From Paludibacter sp. (GTDB lineage Bacteria; Bacteroidota; Bacteroidia; Bacteroidales; Paludibacteraceae), in the NCBI GenBank assembly GCA_028692715.1, contig JAQUWU010000006.1, forward strand, positions 62,001-126,000: DNA of 64,000 bases, in the 5' to 3' direction. A program made the position numbers and the translations under genes. The notes under the pieces are model-generated. The model was not told the DNA's origin. It did not search any database and was given only the letters and a program-made list of their open reading frames with translations. Positions within the stretch are counted from its first letter, which is position 1; every line of letters starts with the position of its first letter. Below, piece by piece: positions 20,800-48,186 of the stretch.

Positions 20800-21747
20800 A
20801 TGAAACAGTTCACTATATTTACTATTCTGTTGTATTTGTTAATTGGAACAAGCAATTGTTTTTCAAATAACCCACTAAATCTAGGAGAAATTCTAACTGC
20901 CGATCCATCAGGACATGTTTGGAAAGATGGTAAAATGTATCTCTACACATCTCATGATGAAGAATGTCAGGAAGATTTTTGGATGAAAGACTGGCATGTA
21001 TTTTCTTCGGTTGACCTCATAAATTGGACCGATCAAGGTGTGTGTTTAACCGTTGATAGCCTTTCGTGGGCCGATAATTATGCATGGGCACCGGATTGTG
21101 CTTATAAAAATGGGAAATATTATTTTTGCTTTCCTACTGGGAAAGGAAAAAAAGACAGGGTAAATCCGGCCAACAGCACTAAATGGATGGGAATTGGCAT
21201 CGCGGTAAGCGATTCTCCAATCGGTCCGTTTAAAGATGCAATAGGTGCTCCACTATGGACTGAACCTTACGCCAACGATCCCTGCCTTTTTATTGATGAT
21301 AATGGAAAAGGTTATATTTATTTTCATGGTGGTGACGATTATATGGTTGCAGAAATGTCCGACGATTTATTGAGCGTTAAAGGAAAATTAAAGAAAATGG
21401 ACATGGGTGGTTATGAACCTAAAATGGAAGGTCCTTGGGTGTTTAAACAAAATGGATTTTACTATTATACCATGCCCGAAAATAACCGAATGCTATCATA
21501 TTATATGTCGACTTCCCCAACTGGGCCTTGGAACTACAAAGGAATGATAATGGAAGAGGAAAACGGAAATAACCATCATTCCATCGTTCAATTTAAAGGT
21601 CAATGGATTTTGTTTTATCATCGATGGTTGAAAACAAATTCGTCATGCGAAAAGATGCAACGAAAAGTATGTGCTGAATATTTGTATTTTAACGAAGACG
21701 GGACAATAAAAGAAGTAAAAAGAACTGATACAGGGGTTGGAAATTAA
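20800..21747 (+). CDS. Glycoside hydrolase family 43-type exo-enzyme, secreted
   Basis: 315 residues with an N-terminal signal peptide (about 1-21). Five-bladed beta-propeller enzyme with the three expected acidic residues: base Asp35 (LTADPSGHVW), pKa-modulating Asp160 (YANDPCLFID) and general acid Glu210 (YEPKMEGPWVF). GH43 enzymes are alpha-L-arabinofuranosidases, beta-xylosidases, arabinanases or galactosidases, and this cannot be narrowed by eye. Pectin side chains (arabinan, arabinogalactan) are the likely substrates given the nearby pectinase locus. Probably co-transcribed with the next gene (69 bp gap). Confidence 0.85.
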   Translation: MKQFTIFTILLYLLIGTSNCFSNNPLNLGEILTADPSGHVWKDGKMYLYTSHDEECQEDFWMKDWHVFSSVDLINWTDQGVCLTVDSLSWADNYAWAPDCAYKNGKYYFCFPTGKGKKDRVNPANSTKWMGIGIAVSDSPIGPFKDAIGAPLWTEPYANDPCLFIDDNGKGYIYFHGGDDYMVAEMSDDLLSVKGKLKKMDMGGYEPKMEGPWVFKQNGFYYYTMPENNRMLSYYMSTSPTGPWNYKGMIMEEENGNNHHSIVQFKGQWILFYHRWLKTNSSCEKMQRKVCAEYLYFNEDGTIKEVKRTDTGVGN

Positions 21748-26276: not shown

Positions 26277-26954
26277 ATGAAAATACTTGTAATAGAAGAC
26301 GAACCTGAAATGAGGAGACTGATAAAACAGTTTCTTACTGAGGAGAATTATATAGTTGAAGAAGCTGCTGATTTTCATTCCGGACTGGATAAAATTTCAG
26401 CCTATGATTATGACTGTATACTCTTGGATATAAGCCTTCCAGGAGGTAGTGGACTCGAGATATTACAGGAATTAAAAAACATGAATAAAGCCGACAGCGT
26501 AATTATTATTTCGGCAAAAGACTCGCTGGATGATAAAATTAAAGGGCTGGATTTAGGAGCAGATGATTACCTCACAAAACCGTTTCATATTGCAGAGCTG
26601 AATGCTCGAATAAAATCAGTTATCCGACGTAAAAAATCGGAAGGTCGACGCTTGCTCGAATTGGGTAACGTCAAAATAAATATTGAAGAACGTTTGGTTT
26701 TGATAAACAATGAATCCATAGAATTAAACCGAAAAGAGTTTGATATTCTTGTATTTTTCGGAATGAATAAATCCAGAATTGTCAGCAAATCGGCTATTGC
26801 CGAAAATATTTGGGGAGATTATATTGATCAATCAAACGATTTTGATTTTATCTATTCCCAAATAAAAAACCTGCGTAAAAAACTTCGTGACCAAGAAGCC
26901 GACATTGATATAAATGCCGTTTATGGAATGGGATATAAATTAATTTTCAAATGA
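26277..26954 (+). CDS. OmpR/PhoB-family response regulator
   Basis: 225 residues. Receiver domain at 1-120: acidic pair near residues 8-9 (IEDEPE), phospho-acceptor Asp51 (CILLDISLPGGSG), switch Lys101 (DDYLTKPFH). C-terminal winged helix at 128-225 (LNRKEFDILVFF, then IAENIWGDYI, DFIYSQIKNLRKKL, YGMGYKL). OmpR-type regulators usually bind pairs or rows of about 11-bp direct repeats; such rows occur at 28656-28699 and 32008-32040. The start of the partner kinase gene overlaps this stop by 4 bases. Confidence 0.95.
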   Translation: MKILVIEDEPEMRRLIKQFLTEENYIVEEAADFHSGLDKISAYDYDCILLDISLPGGSGLEILQELKNMNKADSVIIISAKDSLDDKIKGLDLGADDYLTKPFHIAELNARIKSVIRRKKSEGRRLLELGNVKINIEERLVLINNESIELNRKEFDILVFFGMNKSRIVSKSAIAENIWGDYIDQSNDFDFIYSQIKNLRKKLRDQEADIDINAVYGMGYKLIFK

Positions 26955-28225: not shown

Positions 28226-28327
28226 TTTTTTTCTACTTTTCTTTTTTATCGATGTAATATTAAATAATAGTGACTAAAAAACGACTGAAACTCCTATTAA
28301 AATTGGTTTATTGAGAAATTTATTGAG

Positions 28328-28364
28328 AAGTTTATTGAAATTCGTTTCAATAAACTTTTTTTTT
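28328..28364 (+). terminator. Terminator after the two-component operon
   Basis: Perfect 13-bp stem AAGTTTATTGAAA/TTTCAATAAACTT with a TTCG tetraloop (28341-28344), followed by seven or more T: a textbook intrinsic terminator. Confidence 0.92.
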
Positions 28365-28655
28365 AATAAAAATAAATGAGGTGTTGGGAATGTCATAGTT
28401 TTGAGATAATTTATCAAAAATCCCCTAAGTCAAGCTGGCATTAAATCCCATTATATCAACCAAATGCTTCATGTTATCGGACAATATGGTTCTTCTCATT
28501 TCCGTATAATCTGAAGTATATTTTTTAAAATTTCTCCTAAGCAAAGTCTATGTACTTTTCAGCTTCGCCATAAATTTAATGATTGTTTTTTAGAAAAACT
28601 CCAACCATTTCAGCATCATTACCTTATTATCTAAACAATAGTTGTTTTGTTTGGA

Positions 28656-28712
28656 TTCCAGATTTATTCCAGAATTGTTCCCAATTGTTTCCAGATTCAT
28701 TGTGTTTATTTG
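28656..28712 (+). promoter_or_regulatory. Promoter of the barrel gene with four 11-bp direct repeats
   Basis: TTCCAGATTTA (28656-28666), TTCCAGAATTG (28667-28677), TTCCCAATTG (28678-28687) and TTTCCAGATTCA (28688-28699) are head-to-tail, about one helical turn each. A -7-like TTtaTTTG lies at 28705-28712, 17 bases from the start of the last repeat. The same arrangement occurs at 32008-32053. There is no -33 TTG at the consensus distance, as expected for an activator-dependent promoter. Confidence 0.7.
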
Positions 28713-28931
28713 CATGTTATAAATGCTTTCAAAGATTTATTTATATGTTCTTAAAAGATTTATATATTGTTGGCTGTTAATATAAAAACGAAATAAAACG
28801 AATAAATGCCATTCATTAAAAAAAAACACTCACAGACAAGCATAAAACAAAGGGAATTATATAATTAAACAGGAGTTAAATCATTTATTTTTAATAGATT
28901 AAACTCCTTCAATACCTTAATAAAAAAAATA

Positions 28932-31748
28932 ATGTTCAGGATTTTTAAATTTCACCTACTTGCGATTAAATTCATGTTTATTGGAATAGCAATTGGATTA
29001 GTCTCATTAAACCCCATACATTCCCAGACAATATTATCTCTAGGGGAATTATCCGGTAAAATAATAGCCGTAGAGAACAATCAAACGGTTCCATTGCATT
29101 ATGCAACTGTACGGCTTCTTGCGGCAAAAGACAGCACGTTGATTTCGGGAACTACAACCGATCAATATGGTAGGTATGAATTTCGGTCATTGCGAGACAA
29201 CGATTATTTGCTTCTGGTTTCAAGCGTTGGATATCTAAATATTTACCAACCAGTTAGCGTTAGCGAGATTCAGAACAATATACTGCTTCCGGACATTCTC
29301 CTTTCTGAAAACTCAATCACGTTAAAAGAAGCAACAATTACAGCTAAACGTGCTGAGATGATTGTTAAGAACGACACCGTTGAATTCAATGCTTCATCCT
29401 ACAGATTGAATGAAAATGCAGTTGTGGAAGATTTGTTGATGCGATTGCCCGGAATTATCATAACTGAGGATGGAAAAATACTTGTGAACGGAAAAGAAGT
29501 AACAAAGGTGATGGTCGACGGAAAAGATTTTTTCCGTAGCAATCCAAACCTGTCTATCAAAAATATTCCTGCTCAAATCATGGATAAGCTTCAAATTATC
29601 GACGATAAATCGGAATTGTCAAAACTAACCGGCGTGGATGATGATGAAGAAAATATAACTATTAACATCACCATTCAGAAAGACAAAAAGAGAGGTTGGC
29701 TGGTAAGTAATAACATTGGTGCAGGTAAAGAGTTGAACAGTAATGAAGGCAACCTAATGCGATACTCGGTGAATACTTTTGCCGCAAGGCTGATGAATGA
29801 ATCCCAGCTGGGAATTGTTGCTAATGGCAATAATATAAACGGAATGAACGTAGGAAGCGGAGGTTCAAATAGCGGAAGCGGAAAATCCGGACTGAATTCA
29901 TCTCTATCAGGTGGTATTAATTTTTCTTCAGGAAAAGATAAAGATACGCCCTGGGTTTTCAACGGAGATTTATCATACGGCTTCAACGAGCGGAAATTAC
30001 GCAGAAGTTCAATCAGACAATATTATTTACAGGACAGCACTTCGTTTCAAACGGATACAATTGAACAAATCAGCCGTGAAGAAGGAATACGTTTTAGCGC
30101 CAAGCTAGAGAGTCACGCATTGGAAAACTGGACATTTTCTTTCTCACCATCTGCGTCCTATACTTCTACGTACGAAAATAACGAAGGATATACCTTATTA
30201 CAGGCCGGAAACCTATATCGTGATTCGGTGAACAGAAACAGATACAATCGAATTTCGACGACTCCTTCATTAAGTTTACGTTCAGTTTTAACCGTTACTC
30301 ATGATTTTGAAAAGAAAAGGCGTAAACTCTCTCTTAGTTTGGATACTCGATACTCGAACAGTGAAGGAACTGGTGAAACCAATGCAAATTACTACTATTT
30401 CCGTAATCAGCCCGATAGTCGTGAAAAAATTATAAATCAACAATGGGAAAATAATTCGACAAATTTCTATAATCGCCTTTATCTTTCGTACATCGAGCCA
30501 CTCGGTGAAAAGAACTCACTACAATTTGCTTATTGGATAAAATCGAACGATCGTGAAAACATAAAAAATAACTATAAACCCGATTTGGTTACCGGTGAAT
30601 ATAAAGTGTTGGACTTGCCATACAGTAAAAGTTTTGATAATAACGAACTGACTCAACAATTGAGAGTTAGTTTTCGCGGAGTTTTTAAAAAAGTAGTCTA
30701 TACCCTCGGTCTTGATTACAATCCAGCTTATATACGAAGTCGGTCTTTTATTCAAAATGGGGCTATTTCGGGTGCAGATTCCACGATTACTTATTTCCCC
30801 GGTTTGCAAAACTACAATTATGCCCCGAAAGCATACTTAATGTATAATATAGGCGATGGAAAAAGTCTTCGTTTCGACTATAGGGGTAGATCGGAATCAC
30901 CTTCTGTAGAGCAACTCGATCCTTCGCCCGACGAAACAAATCCATCTCATATCCGTATTGGAAATCCTGATCTGTTGCCACAATTTACTCACCGTACCCG
31001 ATTGCGATTTAATAATAACAACAAGGAAAAGCAACAGTCAATACAGGTTCATTTGGAAGGAGAATATACTGAAAACGACATTATAAACTTTACGAATTAC
31101 GATGGGACATCAGGAGTAAAGACTGTTACGCCTGTAAACATGTCCGGATCGTGGAATACTACCGGTACGCTCATATTCAATCGTCCACTGTCCAAATTAT
31201 TTCAAATCAATAATTACACACGGTTGGGTGTTCGTAATAATATCGGGTTTTCTACCATTGATGGCAATTCGAGCAGCCAGAAAACTGTAGCTACGACCTT
31301 CTCTTTCAACGAAGATTTGGGATTGACCTTTAAATGGGAATGGTTATACTTGCTGGCAAAAGCAACATATCAGGCGAATAGTACCACTTATTCGATTGAG
31401 AATATGCTTTCGAAGAAGACTTCACAATTAGGTAGTTTCCTGACTACCCAAATCAATCTGTCTGGTTCTCTAAGTGTTTCCAGCGGTTTAAATTACCGCT
31501 ATTTGAAAGGTTTTTCTGCTGAATACGACCGTCAGGAATTTATTTGGAATGCCGAAATAAGCAAGAGTTTTCTAAAAAGCAAAGCTGCTACTGTAACCCT
31601 GATGCTTAATGACATATTACAACAACAACTCAGCGTTACCCAGAAAATTTCGAGTAATTATGTTGAAGATCAGCAGCAAAACACGCTGAAAAGTTTTGTG
31701 ATGCTAGTATTTTCATACAAGTTCAATACAATGGGAAAAGAAAAATAA
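28932..31748 (+). CDS. Outer-membrane beta-barrel protein, TonB-receptor-like with CarboxypepD-like N-domain
   Basis: 938 residues. Signal peptide to about residue 32 (NPIHSQ), a CarboxypepD regulatory-like beta-sandwich near 38-125 (VPLHYATVRLLAAKDST, TTDQYGRYEFRSL), a plug-like domain near 150-225 (LMRLPGIIITEDGKILVNGK, VMVDGKDFFRSNP), then a long barrel region rich in aromatic beta strands. This is the OMP_b-brl_3 class of Bacteroidota proteins, not SusC: no SusD partner follows. Its cargo is unknown. Its promoter shares repeats with the PepSY-pectate lyase operon, so import or sensing of pectin products is plausible. Confidence 0.85.
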   Translation: MFRIFKFHLLAIKFMFIGIAIGLVSLNPIHSQTILSLGELSGKIIAVENNQTVPLHYATVRLLAAKDSTLISGTTTDQYGRYEFRSLRDNDYLLLVSSVGYLNIYQPVSVSEIQNNILLPDILLSENSITLKEATITAKRAEMIVKNDTVEFNASSYRLNENAVVEDLLMRLPGIIITEDGKILVNGKEVTKVMVDGKDFFRSNPNLSIKNIPAQIMDKLQIIDDKSELSKLTGVDDDEENITINITIQKDKKRGWLVSNNIGAGKELNSNEGNLMRYSVNTFAARLMNESQLGIVANGNNINGMNVGSGGSNSGSGKSGLNSSLSGGINFSSGKDKDTPWVFNGDLSYGFNERKLRRSSIRQYYLQDSTSFQTDTIEQISREEGIRFSAKLESHALENWTFSFSPSASYTSTYENNEGYTLLQAGNLYRDSVNRNRYNRISTTPSLSLRSVLTVTHDFEKKRRKLSLSLDTRYSNSEGTGETNANYYYFRNQPDSREKIINQQWENNSTNFYNRLYLSYIEPLGEKNSLQFAYWIKSNDRENIKNNYKPDLVTGEYKVLDLPYSKSFDNNELTQQLRVSFRGVFKKVVYTLGLDYNPAYIRSRSFIQNGAISGADSTITYFPGLQNYNYAPKAYLMYNIGDGKSLRFDYRGRSESPSVEQLDPSPDETNPSHIRIGNPDLLPQFTHRTRLRFNNNNKEKQQSIQVHLEGEYTENDIINFTNYDGTSGVKTVTPVNMSGSWNTTGTLIFNRPLSKLFQINNYTRLGVRNNIGFSTIDGNSSSQKTVATTFSFNEDLGLTFKWEWLYLLAKATYQANSTTYSIENMLSKKTSQLGSFLTTQINLSGSLSVSSGLNYRYLKGFSAEYDRQEFIWNAEISKSFLKSKAATVTLMLNDILQQQLSVTQKISSNYVEDQQQNTLKSFVMLVFSYKFNTMGKEK

Positions 31749-31755
31749 TATTTTT

Positions 31756-31881
31756 ATGGATAAATATGAATTAAAAAGCATAAAAAGAGTTTCTCAAAAG
31801 TATTTTAAAGTTTACGGTGAGTCTCAAATAGAAAGTGAAAATAAATATCAAAGTTTATACGCTTCAAGACGTTGTATATGA
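31756..31881 (+). CDS. Possible 41-residue protein, hypothetical
   Basis: ATG eight bases after the barrel stop, ending in TGA. The predicted peptide begins MDKYELKSIKRVSQKYF and is basic and soluble, with a single cysteine near its end. No family is recognised. It could be a small translated gene in the barrel operon or chance; codon use is unremarkable. Confidence 0.25.
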   Translation: MDKYELKSIKRVSQKYFKVYGESQIESENKYQSLYASRRCI

Positions 31882-32007
31882 GTGGTTAAACATTATTTAA
31901 AAGAGTTGTAATTACGATTAAATTACTATATTTAACAACATTAATTATAAAGTCCTAAAATTATCAAATCACAACCTTTATGGTAATAAAATTTGGACAT
32001 TTTTCTA

Positions 32008-32053
32008 TTCCAGATTTGTTCCCAATTGTTTCCAGATTTGTGTTTTATCTTTG
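32008..32053 (+). promoter_or_regulatory. Promoter of the PepSY-pectate lyase operon with three direct repeats
   Basis: TTCCAGATTTG (32008-32018), TTCCCAATTG (32019-32028) and TTTCCAGATTTG (32029-32040), then -7 box TAtcTTTG (32046-32053). The last repeat begins 17 bases before the -7 box, exactly as at 28688/28705. A candidate binding site for the OmpR-type regulator encoded at 26277. Confidence 0.72.
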
Positions 32054-32142: not shown

Positions 32143-32958
32143 ATGAAACGAAAAATTATAATATATTTATTTGTCCTTTTTACAGGAAGTCTTCTTGCTG
32201 ATAATATCAATCAGAGCGATGTACCCGCTGTGGTATTGAACACATTTCAATTAAAATTTCCAACTTCCGACAATGTTAAATGGAAGTTGGAAAAAGGTAA
32301 TTACCAGGTTGATTTCAAAGTGAACAGCAAGGATAATAAATTGACAATTGATTATAAAGGAAATGTATTAAAACATAACCAGGATTTATTCGTTAGCGAA
32401 ATTCCTAGAGTTGTATTGGAAACCATAAAAAAGAAAGCAAGATTTTTCGATATAAATGATGCTGATAAATATGTTGATGGCAATAAAATTACGTATGTAA
32501 TACAGTTCAAAATTGATAGAAAAGATTATTTCTTCTGGATTGACGAAAAAGGGAAATTATTGAAATACAGGAGGGAATTAAAAGAAAGTGAAATACCATC
32601 TTCAATGATTCAGTTTATTAATAATAAATATGGCACAATAGATTATGACAGGGCAAAATTTATTGAAGAGAATGGAAAAATAAATTACATTATCAGAGTT
32701 AAAATCAATAACATGGATCACATTTTTTGGATGGGTAACAACGGAGTTCTATTAAAACACATTCAGGATCTCAGAGATTCAGAAATTCCATCACCTGTGC
32801 TGAACGCCGCTAAAAATGACTATAGTGACTATAAGCTTCACGATGCTCAGTGGATTGAGGAAAGAGGAAAATCTATTTATAAACTGGGAATGAGAAAATC
32901 AAACAAAAAAGTCAATTTAACCATAAACACTCAAGGTAAAATACTCGACGTAAAATAA
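32143..32958 (+). CDS. Secreted PepSY-like (DUF2874-type) repeat protein
   Basis: 271 residues with a signal peptide (to about residue 19). Four repeats of 60-64 residues, each opening with S-[DE]-[VI]-P (residues 25, 85, 149, 213) and continuing into a beta-rich half (VDFKVNSKDNKLTIDYKG, IQFKIDRKDYFFWIDEKG, IIRVKINNMDHIFW). This is the pattern of PepSY-like DUF2874 proteins of Bacteroidota, often found near two-component systems. It lies 40 bp upstream of the PL10 gene with no terminator between, so it is the first gene of the pectinase operon. It may modulate the sensor kinase; unproven. Confidence 0.8.
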   Translation: MKRKIIIYLFVLFTGSLLADNINQSDVPAVVLNTFQLKFPTSDNVKWKLEKGNYQVDFKVNSKDNKLTIDYKGNVLKHNQDLFVSEIPRVVLETIKKKARFFDINDADKYVDGNKITYVIQFKIDRKDYFFWIDEKGKLLKYRRELKESEIPSSMIQFINNKYGTIDYDRAKFIEENGKINYIIRVKINNMDHIFWMGNNGVLLKHIQDLRDSEIPSPVLNAAKNDYSDYKLHDAQWIEERGKSIYKLGMRKSNKKVNLTINTQGKILDVK

Positions 32959-32998: not shown

Positions 32999-34123
32999 AT
33001 GAAAAAATTAAAATTTATTACATTGGCATTACTTGTAAGCTTCACTTCAACAATTAGTTTTGCACGAAACAAAACAGACAAGTCGTCAGACTATCTTAAT
33101 CATAACTGGAAATATGTAGCTACAAGAATGCCAGCTGATTGGTATAGCTCAGACGAAGCAAAACAGGTTGCAGAAAATGTATTGATTAGTCAAAAAGAGA
33201 TTGGTGGCTGGGAGAAAAACAAACCTTATCATCATGAATTTACTGAATCAGAAAAAGCCCATTATATAAAAGACAAAAATGAAATCGGCGCTACATTCGA
33301 TAATGGTGCAACCATTACCGAACTCAGATTTCTGGCTAAAATGTATACTCAAACAAAAGATGAACGCTATAAACAAGCATTTGAGAAAGGGTTGAATTAT
33401 ATTTTTATTTCGCAGTATGCAAATGGTGGTTGGCCACAGTTTTTTCCGGTTCGTAAAGGAAGCGTATCCTATTCGGGTCATATTACTTACAACGACAATG
33501 CAATGGTTAATACTATGGAATTACTAAAAATGGTATATTCTGATGATAAAGAATTTAAAACACTTCAACTAACTACAGAAGAAAAAACAAAAGCAAAAAA
33601 AGCCTTTGAGAAAGGAATAGAGTGTTTCCTGAAAACACAAATTATTGTTGATGGAAAACCAACTGTCTGGTGTGCTCAACACGATGAAGTAACCCTTGCT
33701 CCTGCAAAAGCCAGAAGTTATGAACTCGCCTCTTTTAGTGGTGCCGAATCCGTTGGAATTTTGTTGATGTTAATGGAAATTGAAAAACCGTCAAAAGAAA
33801 TTATTGCTTCGGTGAATGGGGCTATCAAATGGTTTGAAATTCATAAAGTTGAGGGAATAAAATTAGACACAGAAATACAAGCTGATGGGATGAGAAACAG
33901 AATTGTAGTTGAAGATAAAAATGCACCTGCAATATGGGCTCGGTTCTACGATTTGGAAACTCAAAAACCTTTCTTTTGCGATCGTGATGGCGTTAAGAAA
34001 AACACATTTGCCGAAATGGGGTACAACCGTAGAAATGGTTACAGCTGGTATACATATTCTCCGAAAAAAGCCTTGCAAAAATACCCTGAATGGCTGACAA
34101 ATAATAAATTAATAAAAAAATAA
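32999..34123 (+). CDS. Pectate lyase, polysaccharide lyase family 10
   Basis: 374 residues with a signal peptide (cleavage near residue 21, SFA-RN). Cleaves polygalacturonate by beta-elimination, giving 4,5-unsaturated ends. Family 10 features of the alpha/alpha toroid: QKEIGGWEKNKPYHHE, NGATITELRFLAKMY, NGGWPQFFPVR, ITYNDNAMVNTM with the conserved Asp, VWCAQHDEVTLAPAKARSYE with the conserved Arg, and the ending FAEMGYNRRNGYSWYTYSP. Exported to the periplasm or surface. First catalytic gene of the cluster; 25 bp before the first PL1 gene. Confidence 0.93.
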   Translation: MKKLKFITLALLVSFTSTISFARNKTDKSSDYLNHNWKYVATRMPADWYSSDEAKQVAENVLISQKEIGGWEKNKPYHHEFTESEKAHYIKDKNEIGATFDNGATITELRFLAKMYTQTKDERYKQAFEKGLNYIFISQYANGGWPQFFPVRKGSVSYSGHITYNDNAMVNTMELLKMVYSDDKEFKTLQLTTEEKTKAKKAFEKGIECFLKTQIIVDGKPTVWCAQHDEVTLAPAKARSYELASFSGAESVGILLMLMEIEKPSKEIIASVNGAIKWFEIHKVEGIKLDTEIQADGMRNRIVVEDKNAPAIWARFYDLETQKPFFCDRDGVKKNTFAEMGYNRRNGYSWYTYSPKKALQKYPEWLTNNKLIKK

Positions 34124-45348: not shown

Positions 45349-46596
45349 GTGAAAAAATCCTTTTTATATACATTACTTTTATTTATTTCTATTACTTCAT
45401 ATTCAAGAAACAAGGCTCCAATTGAAACAAATGTTGATCGAAAAATTCAGATTTACCTGGATTGTGATGATTGTAACTCTTCATTCTTTACAAGAAATCT
45501 TAATTATGTTGATATTGTAAGGGACGCCAAACTTGCCGATGTGCATATTTTTGGAACAAAGCAAAAAACGGCAAGCAATAGTATTGAATATGGCATGAAT
45601 TTTATTGGATTTAATCGGTATGCTGATCTTCATTATAATTTAAAAACTTTTTCGCCTCAGGATGAAACTGAAATGCTGAAATGGGAAAGATTGTTGAAAA
45701 TTATAAATATTGGACTTCTACCCCATTTGTCAAGAACACCTGAAATTAGCGAAATAAATATTAGTCATTCGGTTGATACTATGGTTACACAAAAAAAGTG
45801 AACATAGTTCCCTGGAATTATTGGATTTTTCGGGTTGAATTAGGCTCTGATTTTGAAGGTGAGGAAAGCAAACAAGAATATTCGTTGAAAAGTTCGTTTA
45901 AAACTGATTGGATAACGGAGACATTAAAATTTAAGTCAACACTTTCTTATGATATTAACAATGAAACTTATAAAGATAATAATGAGATAATTACAAGCAA
46001 AAAAAAAGAAGCCGAATTGAACACCAGACTGATTTATTCTTTGAATCCAAGATGGTTTGTGGGATTATTTGGAGAACTTTCAAGATCTTCTTATCCCAAT
46101 TTAAATTCAGCCATGTATCTGGGACCTGCTATTGAGTATAATATTTTCCCTTTGGGATAAATCTGACAAAAAGGTCTTTACAATTGCATATCATTTGAGA
46201 GCATATTATTATAATTATAACCAATTAACCATATACAATAAATTAGATGAATGGAAAACAACCGAATCTTTAAAATTATCTTTATTAATGCGGCAGCCTT
46301 GGGGCGAAATTGAAAATACACTCGAAGGAGCACATTATTTAGACGACTTCTCAAAAAACAAATTATCGTTTGAATCTAATTTTTCAATTAATGTAGCAAA
46401 AGGCTTGTCAGTTTTTATGGAATTAGATGCTCAGTTATTAAACAATCAATTATATCTTCCTGCAGGGGAAGCTTCAAGAGAGGAGATTCTATTGCAACAA
46501 AGAAAATTGGCTACAAATTTTGAAATCTCAGGGAACTTTGGTATCCGATTTACTTTTGGTTCAAAATACAATAACATTGTCAATCAAAGACTTTAA
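45349..46596 (+). pseudogene. DUF481-like outer-membrane protein gene broken by two frameshifts
   Basis: Three consecutive frames encode one protein. Frame 1 (45349-45801): signal peptide, KIQIYLDCDDCNSSFFTRN, VRDAKLADVHIFG. Frame 2 (45798-46160): WNYWIFRVELGSDFEG, TRLIYSLNPRWFVGLF. Frame 3 (46132-46596): KVFTIAYHLRAYYYN, GIRFTFGS. Breaks fall at an A7 run (45790-45796) and at TTTCCCTTTGGG (46145-46156); restoring one base at each would give about 415 residues of a barrel related to DUF481-type proteins. The start is GTG. Either a genuine pseudogene or two homopolymer sequencing errors. Confidence 0.65.
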
Positions 46597-46713: not shown

Positions 46714-48186
46714 ATGAATAAATACTTTTTTTCAGCACTTGCACTTTTACTGTCATTAACTACTTCATGATCGCAACAACTAGCATTTCCGGGGGCAGAA
46801 GGATTCGGCGCATACTCCAAAGGGGGGCGTGGCGGACAAATTGTTGAAGTAACAAACTTACAAGACGATGAAATGGGCTTAATTCCCGGAAGCTTACGAT
46901 GGGCATTTAAAAAAAGTGAATCTGAACCAACAACCATTGTATTTCGGATTTCAGGAGTTATCCATTTGGTTACCGATTTGAGAGGGAAGTTTACAAAAGG
47001 CTTGACTTTAGCCGGACAAACTGCTCCCGGCGATGGTATTTGTATACGTGGGAGTAAAGTAAACTTCGGCGGAAGTTCAAATTTAATAATCCGACACCTA
47101 CGCTTCCGTATTGGTTTGAATGACGATGGTAGTTTTGTAAAAGGAGGTTCAATAGGACTTGAAAATGCCAACAATGTCATTATTGACCATTGTACTTTTG
47201 GGTGGTCGGGCGAAGAAAACATGACCATGTATGATAATGATTTCACCACAGTTCAATGGTGCATCATCCATGAGGGACTTTACGCGTCGGGGCATGCAAA
47301 AGGAGCACGCAGCTTTGGGGTTCAGTGGGGAGGTCAAAATGCGACTTATCATCACAATTTATTAGCACATAACAATAATCGAAGCCCACGATTCAACGGC
47401 AGTAAACACCACGATATTAATGTTGTATACGAGTATGTAAACAATGTCAATTATAATTGGGGCAGAGCTACTTCTGCCTATGGAGCCTACATTGAGATTC
47501 CAAACGGAACGTATGATTGTAACTTTATAAATAACTATTACAAGCCTGGTCCGGCCAGACCGGGTGATATGCCTTCATTTTTTGCTAATTCATTGCATCA
47601 CTCCATACAAGGCGACTCAATAATGGCAAAATGGTATATGAATGGGAATATTATGGAGGGTTCTGCAAATAAAGCTCTGAATAAGGATAACTCACTTGGG
47701 CTTAATGCAGAAATGTATAAACCGGCAGGGGTTCAAAAATCGGCTTTAATCTCCTTAAAACCTTTTATTATTCCACATAAACTTAATATTGAAACAGCCG
47801 AGAATGCTTATAAAAGTGTGTTGGCGGGTGCAGGTGCATTTCCAAGAGATGTTGTAGATAAACGCATTGTACTTGAAGTACGTACTGGAACTGCAACAGG
47901 AAAAGGTACAACAGCAAAATATCACGAAAAAAATGAAGCCACATTAGTGGATAATCCATATTATGGAGTTGCCAAAGGAATCATTGATAATCCTGTTATG
48001 GCGTTCGGAGAAAACGCATATCCTGAATATAAAACATTTAATGTACCAACAGATTCTGATCATGACGGTATGCCTGACGAATGGGAAAAGAAAAATGGAC
48101 TCGATCCAAACAATGCAGAGGACAGAAATATAGTTGGAAAGGATGGTTACACTATGTTGGAAAAATATTTAAACAGTATAAAATAA
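46714..48186 (+). pseudogene. PL1 pectate lyase gene interrupted by an in-frame TGA
   Basis: From the ATG at 46714 the frame reads a signal peptide. It then has TGA at 46768-46770 (codon 19) and continues unbroken for 471 codons with all PL1 features: QQLAFPGAEGFGAYSKGGRG, LAGQTAPGDGICIRG, DHCTFGWSGEE, NNRSPRFNGSK and the acidic tail DSDHDGMPDEWEKKNG. The paralogues read TSWSQQLAF or TSWAQQLAF here, so TGA stands where a Trp codon (TGG) is expected: one G-to-A change. A downstream in-frame ATG (46873) would give a form lacking the signal peptide. Other genes here use TGA as stop, so recoding is unlikely. Confidence 0.85.

Follow-up and report, generated by a model that had tools for sequence, protein, structure and literature searches.

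The window considered here is a stretch of 64,000 nucleotides of Paludibacter sp. DNA (NCBI GenBank assembly GCA_028692715.1, contig JAQUWU010000006.1, positions 62,001 to 126,000 of the forward strand), in which the genes of a two-component system are followed by two promoters carrying rows of direct repeats of 11 base pairs (bp), termed arrays A and B. Array A stands before a gene for an outer-membrane barrel and array B before a gene for a PepSY-like protein, behind which genes of pectin degradation follow. The repeats are real and, as judged by their conservation, functional, and they are very probably operators of the response regulator encoded just upstream. The features of the locus, numbered from the first base of the window, are the following:

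26277..26954, plus strand: OmpR/PhoB-type response regulator, 225 amino acids (aa); Pfam Response_reg 108.6 bits, Trans_reg_C 57 bits
26951..28225, plus strand: PorY-family sensor histidine kinase, 424 aa; NCBIfam NF052314 455.9 bits, cut-off 350
28307..28370, plus strand: UUCG-loop hairpin with U-run, probable terminator after the kinase gene; from the fold of 28290-28372
28656..28699, plus strand: array A, four 11-bp half-sites, in order TTCCAGATTTA, TTCCAGAATTG, TTCCCAATTGT, TTCCAGATTCA; direct reading
28705..28712, plus strand: -7-like box of the barrel promoter, TTTATTTG, an imperfect TAnnTTTG
28932..31748, plus strand: outer-membrane beta-barrel protein, OMP_b-brl_3, 938 aa, first gene behind array A; Pfam PF14905 100.4 bits
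32008..32040, plus strand: array B, three 11-bp half-sites, in order TTCCAGATTTG, TTCCCAATTGT, TTCCAGATTTG; direct reading
32046..32053, plus strand: -7 box of the PepSY promoter, TATCTTTG, a perfect TAnnTTTG
32143..32958, plus strand: PepSY-like (DUF2874/BLIP-like) secreted protein with four alpha-beta4 repeats; Pfam PF11396 24.0 bits (sub-threshold), model and structure matches

The regulator passes the Pfam cut-offs of both its domains (30.2 bits for Response_reg, 26.2 bits for Trans_reg_C), and its phospho-acceptor aspartate D51 and the conserved lysine K101 are invariant in 13 aligned orthologues. It shares the receiver and winged-helix fold of PhoB-, OmpR-, PmrA- and KdpE-type regulators; the AlphaFold model (predicted local distance difference test, pLDDT, 87) has Foldseek matches including PmrA-, KdpE- and PhoP-DNA complexes, and its helix at 185-205 is, after the OmpR fold, taken as the recognition helix. 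The kinase gene overlaps the regulator gene by 4 bases. Its product resembles the kinase of the PorXY system in passing the PorY-family cut-off, as do seven of seven kinase relatives scored, whereas its partner is an OmpR-type DNA-binding regulator in the same operon. The output domain of PorX differs from the OmpR type. In Porphyromonas gingivalis, moreover, PorX and PorY carry the distant locus numbers PGN_1019 and PGN_2001. Downstream of the kinase gene, the sequence from 28290 to 28372 folds with -18.2 kcal/mol (z -3.74), a stability equalled in none of 200 shuffles. This UUCG hairpin escaped the G+C-based terminator scan, and sigma-70 and terminator scans of the window gave counts at chance level. 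Due to the stable hairpin and its U-run, array A probably opens a new transcription unit.

The initial annotation described four units at 28656-28699 and three at 32008-32040, which direct reading confirmed; the 10- and 12-base units it also contained were a parsing slip, as the pitch is exactly 11 bp throughout both arrays. Its observation that the last unit (from 28688 and 32029, respectively) starts 17 bases before the -7 box at 28705 and 32046 proved correct. The last two units of the arrays have 20 identical bases in common, and in both cases 11 bases separate the end of the last half-site from the TTTG (28709-28712 and 32050-32053), a gap also present in relatives. Within the window, the pattern TTCCN7TTCCN7TTCC was observed 4 times versus 0.01 expected, with 0 of 100 shuffles reaching 4; three of these matches overlap inside the arrays and one lies at 21530. 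The 20-base core has two window matches, both perfect with up to 3 mismatches allowed, versus 0.01 expected. Across the whole 4.85-Mb genome, the exact three-unit pattern occurs in the arrays and at three other places, and the operator plus TTTG at up to 3 mismatches gave 39 matches versus 19 for the reversed control. Perfect matches are confined to arrays A and B, and two of the other 37 matches are shifted registers of the same arrays. Hence, this genome appears to have two operator promoters, and the many unrelated promoters with the repeat that would have spoken against an operator were not encountered: perfect sites stand at no other promoter of this genome. Since only these two promoters carry a perfect site, the further claim that pectin genes from 46.9 to 58 kb are under the same control is unsupported, and a regulon spanning 28-58 kb was rejected for the lack of perfect sites before the pectin genes from 46.9 kb on.

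Bacteroidota promoters follow -33/-7 rules, an 11-bp head-to-tail geometry of half-sites suits the OmpR/PhoB fold, and the head-to-tail half-sites of PhoB overlap the upstream promoter element. Our preferred reading, held with good confidence, is that arrays A and B are tandem operators of the regulator at 26277-26954, which is partnered with the PorY-family kinase, and that they drive the barrel and the PepSY-lyase promoters. The kinase would phosphorylate the regulator, which would line up head to tail along the 11-bp half-sites (about TTCCAGATT), with one half-site to each helical turn. With 11 bp between its end and the TTTG of the -7 box, the last half-site would occupy the -33 region, and activation of the class II type via contact with RNA polymerase seems most likely, rather than repression. 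Array A would thereby drive the barrel gene, and array B the secreted four-repeat PepSY protein together with a co-directional 13-kb run of pectin-degrading enzymes; the system would respond to a pectin-related signal, and PepSY may feed back on the kinase. Compared with the PhoB, OmpR, PmrA and KdpE types, the system is distinguished by its own half-site sequence, the position 11 bp before a Bacteroidota-type TTTG -7 box and arrays of three to four units.

The assignment of the repeats to the adjacent regulator, as proposed in the initial annotation, is strongly supported because the operator, its spacing and its neighbourhood are conserved together with the orthologous system. Kinase homologues were found in 30 of 100 relatives (E 1e-30 or better) and in 87 of 295 genomes of the order (E 1e-45 or better). 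By kinase similarity alone, 136 loci were picked, 30 from the relatives, 26 from the order and 80 named loci from a collection scan; the latter are the best 80 of 563 confirmed, so that the 136 are best matches, not all matches. They include the window itself, and near-identical species were kept in, so that the counts below are not independent. A usable regulator sequence was missing in five loci; scoring was possible for 129 regions upstream of the regulator gene, which together with the 136 after the kinase gene make 265 regions. In relatives the typical operator is a pair of half-sites, about TTCCMAATTCTTTCCAGAWT, most often separated by 11 bp from the TTTG that follows. In the first set, all five loci whose regulators are 57-63% identical (L040, L041, L042, L044, L045) have TTCC-N7-TTCC closely behind the kinase gene, with the same 11 bp to TTTG, and more distant loci show drifting half-sites (TTTCAGAAT, CTACAGAAT, CTTTAGAAT) at unchanged pitch. 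The tandem arrangement and equal length of the units would also be expected of replication slippage without regulatory meaning, but half-sites that drift while pitch and distance to TTTG stay fixed, the retention of three to four units in 8 of 9 loci of the branch described below and the same arrangement at two separate promoters of one genome led to the rejection of this explanation as highly improbable.

A motif-free test, first run on 106 regions, scored the identity of 9-base words at a given period and a given gap before TTTG. At period 11 and gap 11 it was positive upstream of the regulator gene in 25 of 129 regions and downstream of the kinase gene in 53 of 136; at the same gap, each of nine other periods (7-10, 12-16) gave 0-3 regions. 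The T and A of TAnnTTTG emerged from the aligned seeds even though TTTG alone had been imposed. A weight matrix built from these seeds recognized 80 of the 129 and 104 of the 136 regions, i.e., 184 of 265 overall, whereas among 429 control promoters drawn from the named loci it recognized 2. In two-fold cross-validation, 183 of 265 held-out regions passed versus 0 of 265 mononucleotide shuffles, and the full matrix passed 7 of 265 reverse strands. Grouped by regulator identity, at least one operator was found in 34 of 36 loci at 60-66%, 49 of 49 at 55-60%, 16 of 21 at 50-55% and 6 of 11 at 45-50%; the closest bin has 6 of 8, with the window and L159 counted as misses because their arrays lie beyond the scanned stretch of 250 bp.

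Occurrence of the repeat in genomes without the system had likewise been named as an observation that would speak against the assignment, and taken together the two checks for the most part left it standing. Within the genus, 3 of 48 genomes carry the exact site, and these are the very ones whose kinase homologues are closest (matches below 1e-60). In the 295 genomes of the order, the exact pattern was found at 18 places in 17 genomes (reversed control 2), of which 2 lie in this genome, 8 beside a kinase or before a PepSY gene, and 8 in neither position. A kinase re-test of site-bearing genomes was positive for G349, G337 and G544; at E 1e-25, none was found in G329, G116, G161, G323 and G203, among which only the G329 site stands before a PepSY gene. 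The strict pattern across the phylum was met in 2 of 395 genomes, this one and G544, most of that sample lying outside the window's class. The kinase homologue of G544 (E 1.8e-91) is located on another contig than the site, behind which no open reading frame (ORF) of at least 80 aa lies within 300 bp.

Several observations weigh against the assignment. The -7 box of array A is imperfect, the operator is below threshold or missing in 81 of 265 regions, and its frequency falls where the regulator is distant (3 of 6 loci at 35-45% identity). Half of the exact sites in other genomes of the order (8 of 16) are not beside a kinase or PepSY gene, and G329 features a perfect operator before an orphan PepSY gene (L108, G329:C106:513-547) with no detected kinase, in an assembly of 330 contigs and 93% completeness. 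Covariation of regulator residues with half-site bases at the level of the tips peaks at S194 and Q195, within the helix 185-205. Still, tree-aware counts give a weak signal, with a single change at residue 195 and changes at residue 194 on 6 branches, of which 4 also show a change of half-site base 3; an all-state scan ranks S194 38th of 174 columns, and the covariation enrichment of the recognition helix is 1.76 versus 1.22 for the receiver. Owing to the few independent changes, covariation serves as supporting evidence only. This weakness would suit a different DNA-binding protein that binds the repeats and controls the same promoters. Such a binder is improbable, however, as the operator tracks the regulator operon across Bacteroidota and precedes the regulator's own gene in 80 of 129 regions, is absent within the genus where a close kinase homologue is absent, and has the 11-bp head-to-tail geometry suited to the OmpR/PhoB fold.

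Among described systems, the closest by gene order is HaeSR of P. gingivalis, a haemin-responsive two-component system of the PG0717-PG0720 region (PMC3764172, PMC5706477). Both share the order regulator, kinase and PepSY/DUF2874 proteins, the window having an extra barrel gene. HaeS has 427 aa and the phospho-acceptor H226, the window kinase 424 aa and a conserved H224; one of the periplasmic proteins adjoining HaeSR is a lipoprotein with four DUF2874 domains, and the PepSY protein of the window has four repeats. Targets of HaeR in chromatin immunoprecipitation sequencing include the regulator's own gene (PMC3764172), and a PG0720 footprint protects about 52 bp (PMC8757827). Deletion of PG0717 lowers gingipain activity and the rgpB transcript, PG0717 and PG0718 were proposed as auxiliary regulators, and the PG0717-PG0720 gene context is conserved in Bacteroidales (PMC3772042). 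In Bacteroides thetaiotaomicron, the PepSY-like BT0922-BT0923 are among the iron-dependent genes (PMC10434189). In contrast to HaeSR, whose targets include haem genes, the window has pectin lyases behind the operator, and the branch to which it belongs has arrays of three to four units and no operator before the regulator gene. A pattern derived from a published primer for the P. gingivalis HaeR locus had no match in two candidate groups of 7 and 8 genomes. A term search of a DUF2874 structure paper (PMC2954215) gave no mention of two-component terms, and no open-licence PubMed Central paper was found that describes the operator or a pectin-linked member of the system. The operator, its spread across the phylum and the pectin branch are thus apparently new.

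Scanning both strands of the 80 named loci with the matrix gave 164 matches. Of these, 59 lie upstream of the regulator gene, 67 follow the kinase gene and 38 are found in other positions. An ORF follows 48 of the 67 sites after the kinase gene, 34 of them coding for PepSY proteins; within 300 bp behind the 38 other sites, 31 have an ORF, 22 of which are PepSY. Seven of these 38 lack an ORF behind them, and two are in fact promoters of the system that fall outside the distance limits (downstream of the kinase gene in L159, upstream of the regulator gene in L209). The seed of the PepSY profile consisted of 32 of these same target proteins, picked by length and an AQ pattern. Across the phylum the regulator gene and PepSY genes are the conserved targets; these, and not pectin, are therefore predicted to form the ancient core regulon. 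Other operator-fronted genes code for SdiA-regulated/phytase-like, Porin_O_P, VTT and PAP2 proteins, with one member of each tested. A family of about 290 aa with the motif WELP..EISG recurs as a second kind of target behind operators in L196, L206, L209, L215, L217 and L231; the L215 member is SdiA-regulated/phytase-like by Pfam and the others were judged by eye. Likewise, in two Salegentibacter genomes operators stand before porin-like genes (L193:5895 and L212:5950, the former Porin_O_P by Pfam), hinting at an envelope or phosphate role of the system.

Behind the PepSY gene of the window, three further features complete the locus:

32999..34123, plus strand: Pec_lyase (pectic acid lyase), 40 bp behind PepSY; Pfam PF09492 370.8 bits
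34149..45204, plus strand: co-directional gene run of three PelZ-like lyases, an apiosidase, a partly PelZ-like protein, a DUF5060 protein and a Glyco_hydro_88 protein
45349..46596, plus strand: interrupted copy, in three ORFs, of a family of about 415 aa; tblastn of relatives' proteins against the window

Gaps in the run measure 3-98 bp and contain no terminator-like site in the terminator scan, and PepSY and the run to 45204 presumably form one transcript. The PelZ matches fall far below that family's own cut-off. The PepSY protein itself reaches 24.0 bits for PF11396 versus a gathering threshold of 28.3, its 50%-identical orthologue in L141 reaching 43.7. Its model (pLDDT 90) shows the BLIP-like alpha-beta4 fold in four repeats, and solved DUF2874 structures are matched both by sequence and by fold; among the Foldseek matches, 3u1w has E 7e-15 at a whole-chain template modelling (TM) score of only 0.4, and 4hbr, 4k61 and 4ipb have target TM scores of 0.64-0.67.

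Together with the window, eight loci form a branch of nine in which the pectin link can be followed:

L156, Flammeovirgaceae metagenome-assembled genome (MAG): lyases behind the array
L157, Botryobacter ruber: lyases behind the array
L158, Bacteroidia MAG: no lyase match behind the array
L159, Cellulophaga: lyases behind the array
L160, Tangfeifania MAG: no lyase match behind the array
L161, Bacteroides MAG: cut by a contig end, two units, no lyase match behind the array
L164, Draconibacterium MAG: lyases behind the array
L115/L141, genome G235 of another family of the window's order: lyases behind the array

Their kinases are 56-69% identical to that of the window, and the eight members with a complete regulator sequence (all but L161) form one clade with a support of 0.996. 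The window regulator shares 82% identity with that of the Flammeovirgaceae member versus 58-59% with its closest counterparts of the same genus, which suggests lateral spread of the branch. All nine loci contain the regulator and kinase genes, the operator and a PepSY protein of about 270 aa; that members under different genus names retain the array and PepSY, and often lyases as well, supports the preferred reading. Three to four units were counted in 8 of 9 (L161 has two) versus 1 of 178 other operators scored (L052 with three; L161 is among the 178). Upstream of the regulator gene, 0 of the 8 branch loci that could be scored have an operator, versus 80 of 121 others; thus the branch seems to have lost this site. 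In the window, kinase and PepSY genes are separated by a barrel gene that has an array of its own; no barrel match lies in this interval of the eight other loci. A similar barrel gene follows the kinase gene of L050, with a matrix match between, and lies about 1.1 kb behind that of L126.

The similarity search for pectin enzymes used eight window proteins as queries and covered L141 and the 80 named loci, but not the 56 short loci, which reach about 1.5 kb to each side. Pectin lyases on the same strand behind the array are found in six of the nine branch loci (window, L141, L156, L157, L159, L164). In five of these, 28-61 bp separate PepSY from its neighbour, as against 296 bp in L157, where the neighbour is a nucleoside-hydrolase-like gene and a PelZ-like gene follows 3.4 kb on; in L141 the lyase itself is the first gene behind the array. 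No pectin enzyme match was obtained in L158, L160 and L161 in the DNA examined (up to 8 kb), which counts against the preferred reading. The same distance contained pectin enzymes in the direction of the operon in none of the 73 other named loci; lyase matches in two of them, L194 and L213, were rejected as further links since they lie on the opposite strand, upstream of the regulator. Accordingly, the pectin regulon of the initial annotation stands in part: lyases behind the array in six of nine branch loci speak for it, whereas the phylum-wide targets are the regulator and PepSY genes. The pectin link is specific to one branch and plausible, and it may reflect regulation.

The same targets leave room for a narrower regulon, in which the arrays are operators of the barrel and PepSY genes only, serving an envelope or a metal/haem-type response, with lyases transcribed from promoters of their own and pectin not being the signal. 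The scarcity of pectin enzymes, which are absent from three branch loci and, in operon direction, from all 73 others, would agree with this, as would the haemin response of HaeSR, the published relative by gene order (PMC3764172, PMC5706477). Nevertheless, it is considered somewhat unlikely: same-strand lyases behind the array recur under different genus names, PepSY and its neighbour are closely spaced in five of six lyase-bearing loci, with the lyase directly behind the array in L141, and the gaps of the window run are free of terminator-like sites. A broader and more speculative idea, to which a low probability is given, is that PorY/HaeS-type systems throughout the phylum control PepSY via an ancient 11-bp operator, PepSY acting as co-sensor of the kinase, and that one laterally spread branch was rewired to sense pectate. 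This rewiring would comprise a four-repeat PepSY, an operator grown to three to four units, the loss of the site before the regulator gene and the uptake of lyase genes. The signal could be pectate-bound calcium, because 3u1w and 3db7, matched by the PepSY model, are titled calcium-binding and calcium-regulated, respectively.

Like the regulators of SusCD-linked polysaccharide utilization loci, the system lies beside polysaccharide-degrading genes, and SusC/D-like genes adjoin it in L157 and L164. It differs from SusCD-linked hybrid or extracytoplasmic function (ECF) sigma factor systems by a separate kinase and an OmpR-type regulator, which are two genes, not the one protein of a hybrid two-component system (HTCS); of the 68 listed ORFs of the window, 40 were compared with Pfam, and no SusD-type gene turned up among these. 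A classical kinase/regulator pair, rather than a hybrid system or ECF pair, was thus apparently recruited to head a pectin operon. Moreover, the analysis supplies a concrete operator for a family of regulators that is widespread but little understood; its studied member, judging by gene order, is HaeR, which controls genes of haem uptake and virulence in P. gingivalis. Regulon prediction across Bacteroidota thereby becomes testable. Many DUF2874/PepSY proteins, solved in structure but of unknown function, are in this way tied to one signalling system.

The region behind the gene run shows further peculiarities. A member of the family of about 415 aa directly follows PepSY in L141, L158 and L160, and tblastn gave three separate matches to the interrupted gene of the window, with 32-52% identity for the L141 protein. 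The three overlapping ORFs at 45349-46596 correspond to successive parts of this family and represent either an interrupted gene of the module or sequencing errors. Besides, the pectate-lyase-like gene listed from 46873 has an apparent in-frame start at 46714, its signal-peptide part being cut by an in-frame TGA. On the other side of the system, the DUF362 protein encoded at 23999-25954 matches Por_Secre_tail weakly (25.3 bits, cut-off 27), which hints at type IX secretion in this genome.

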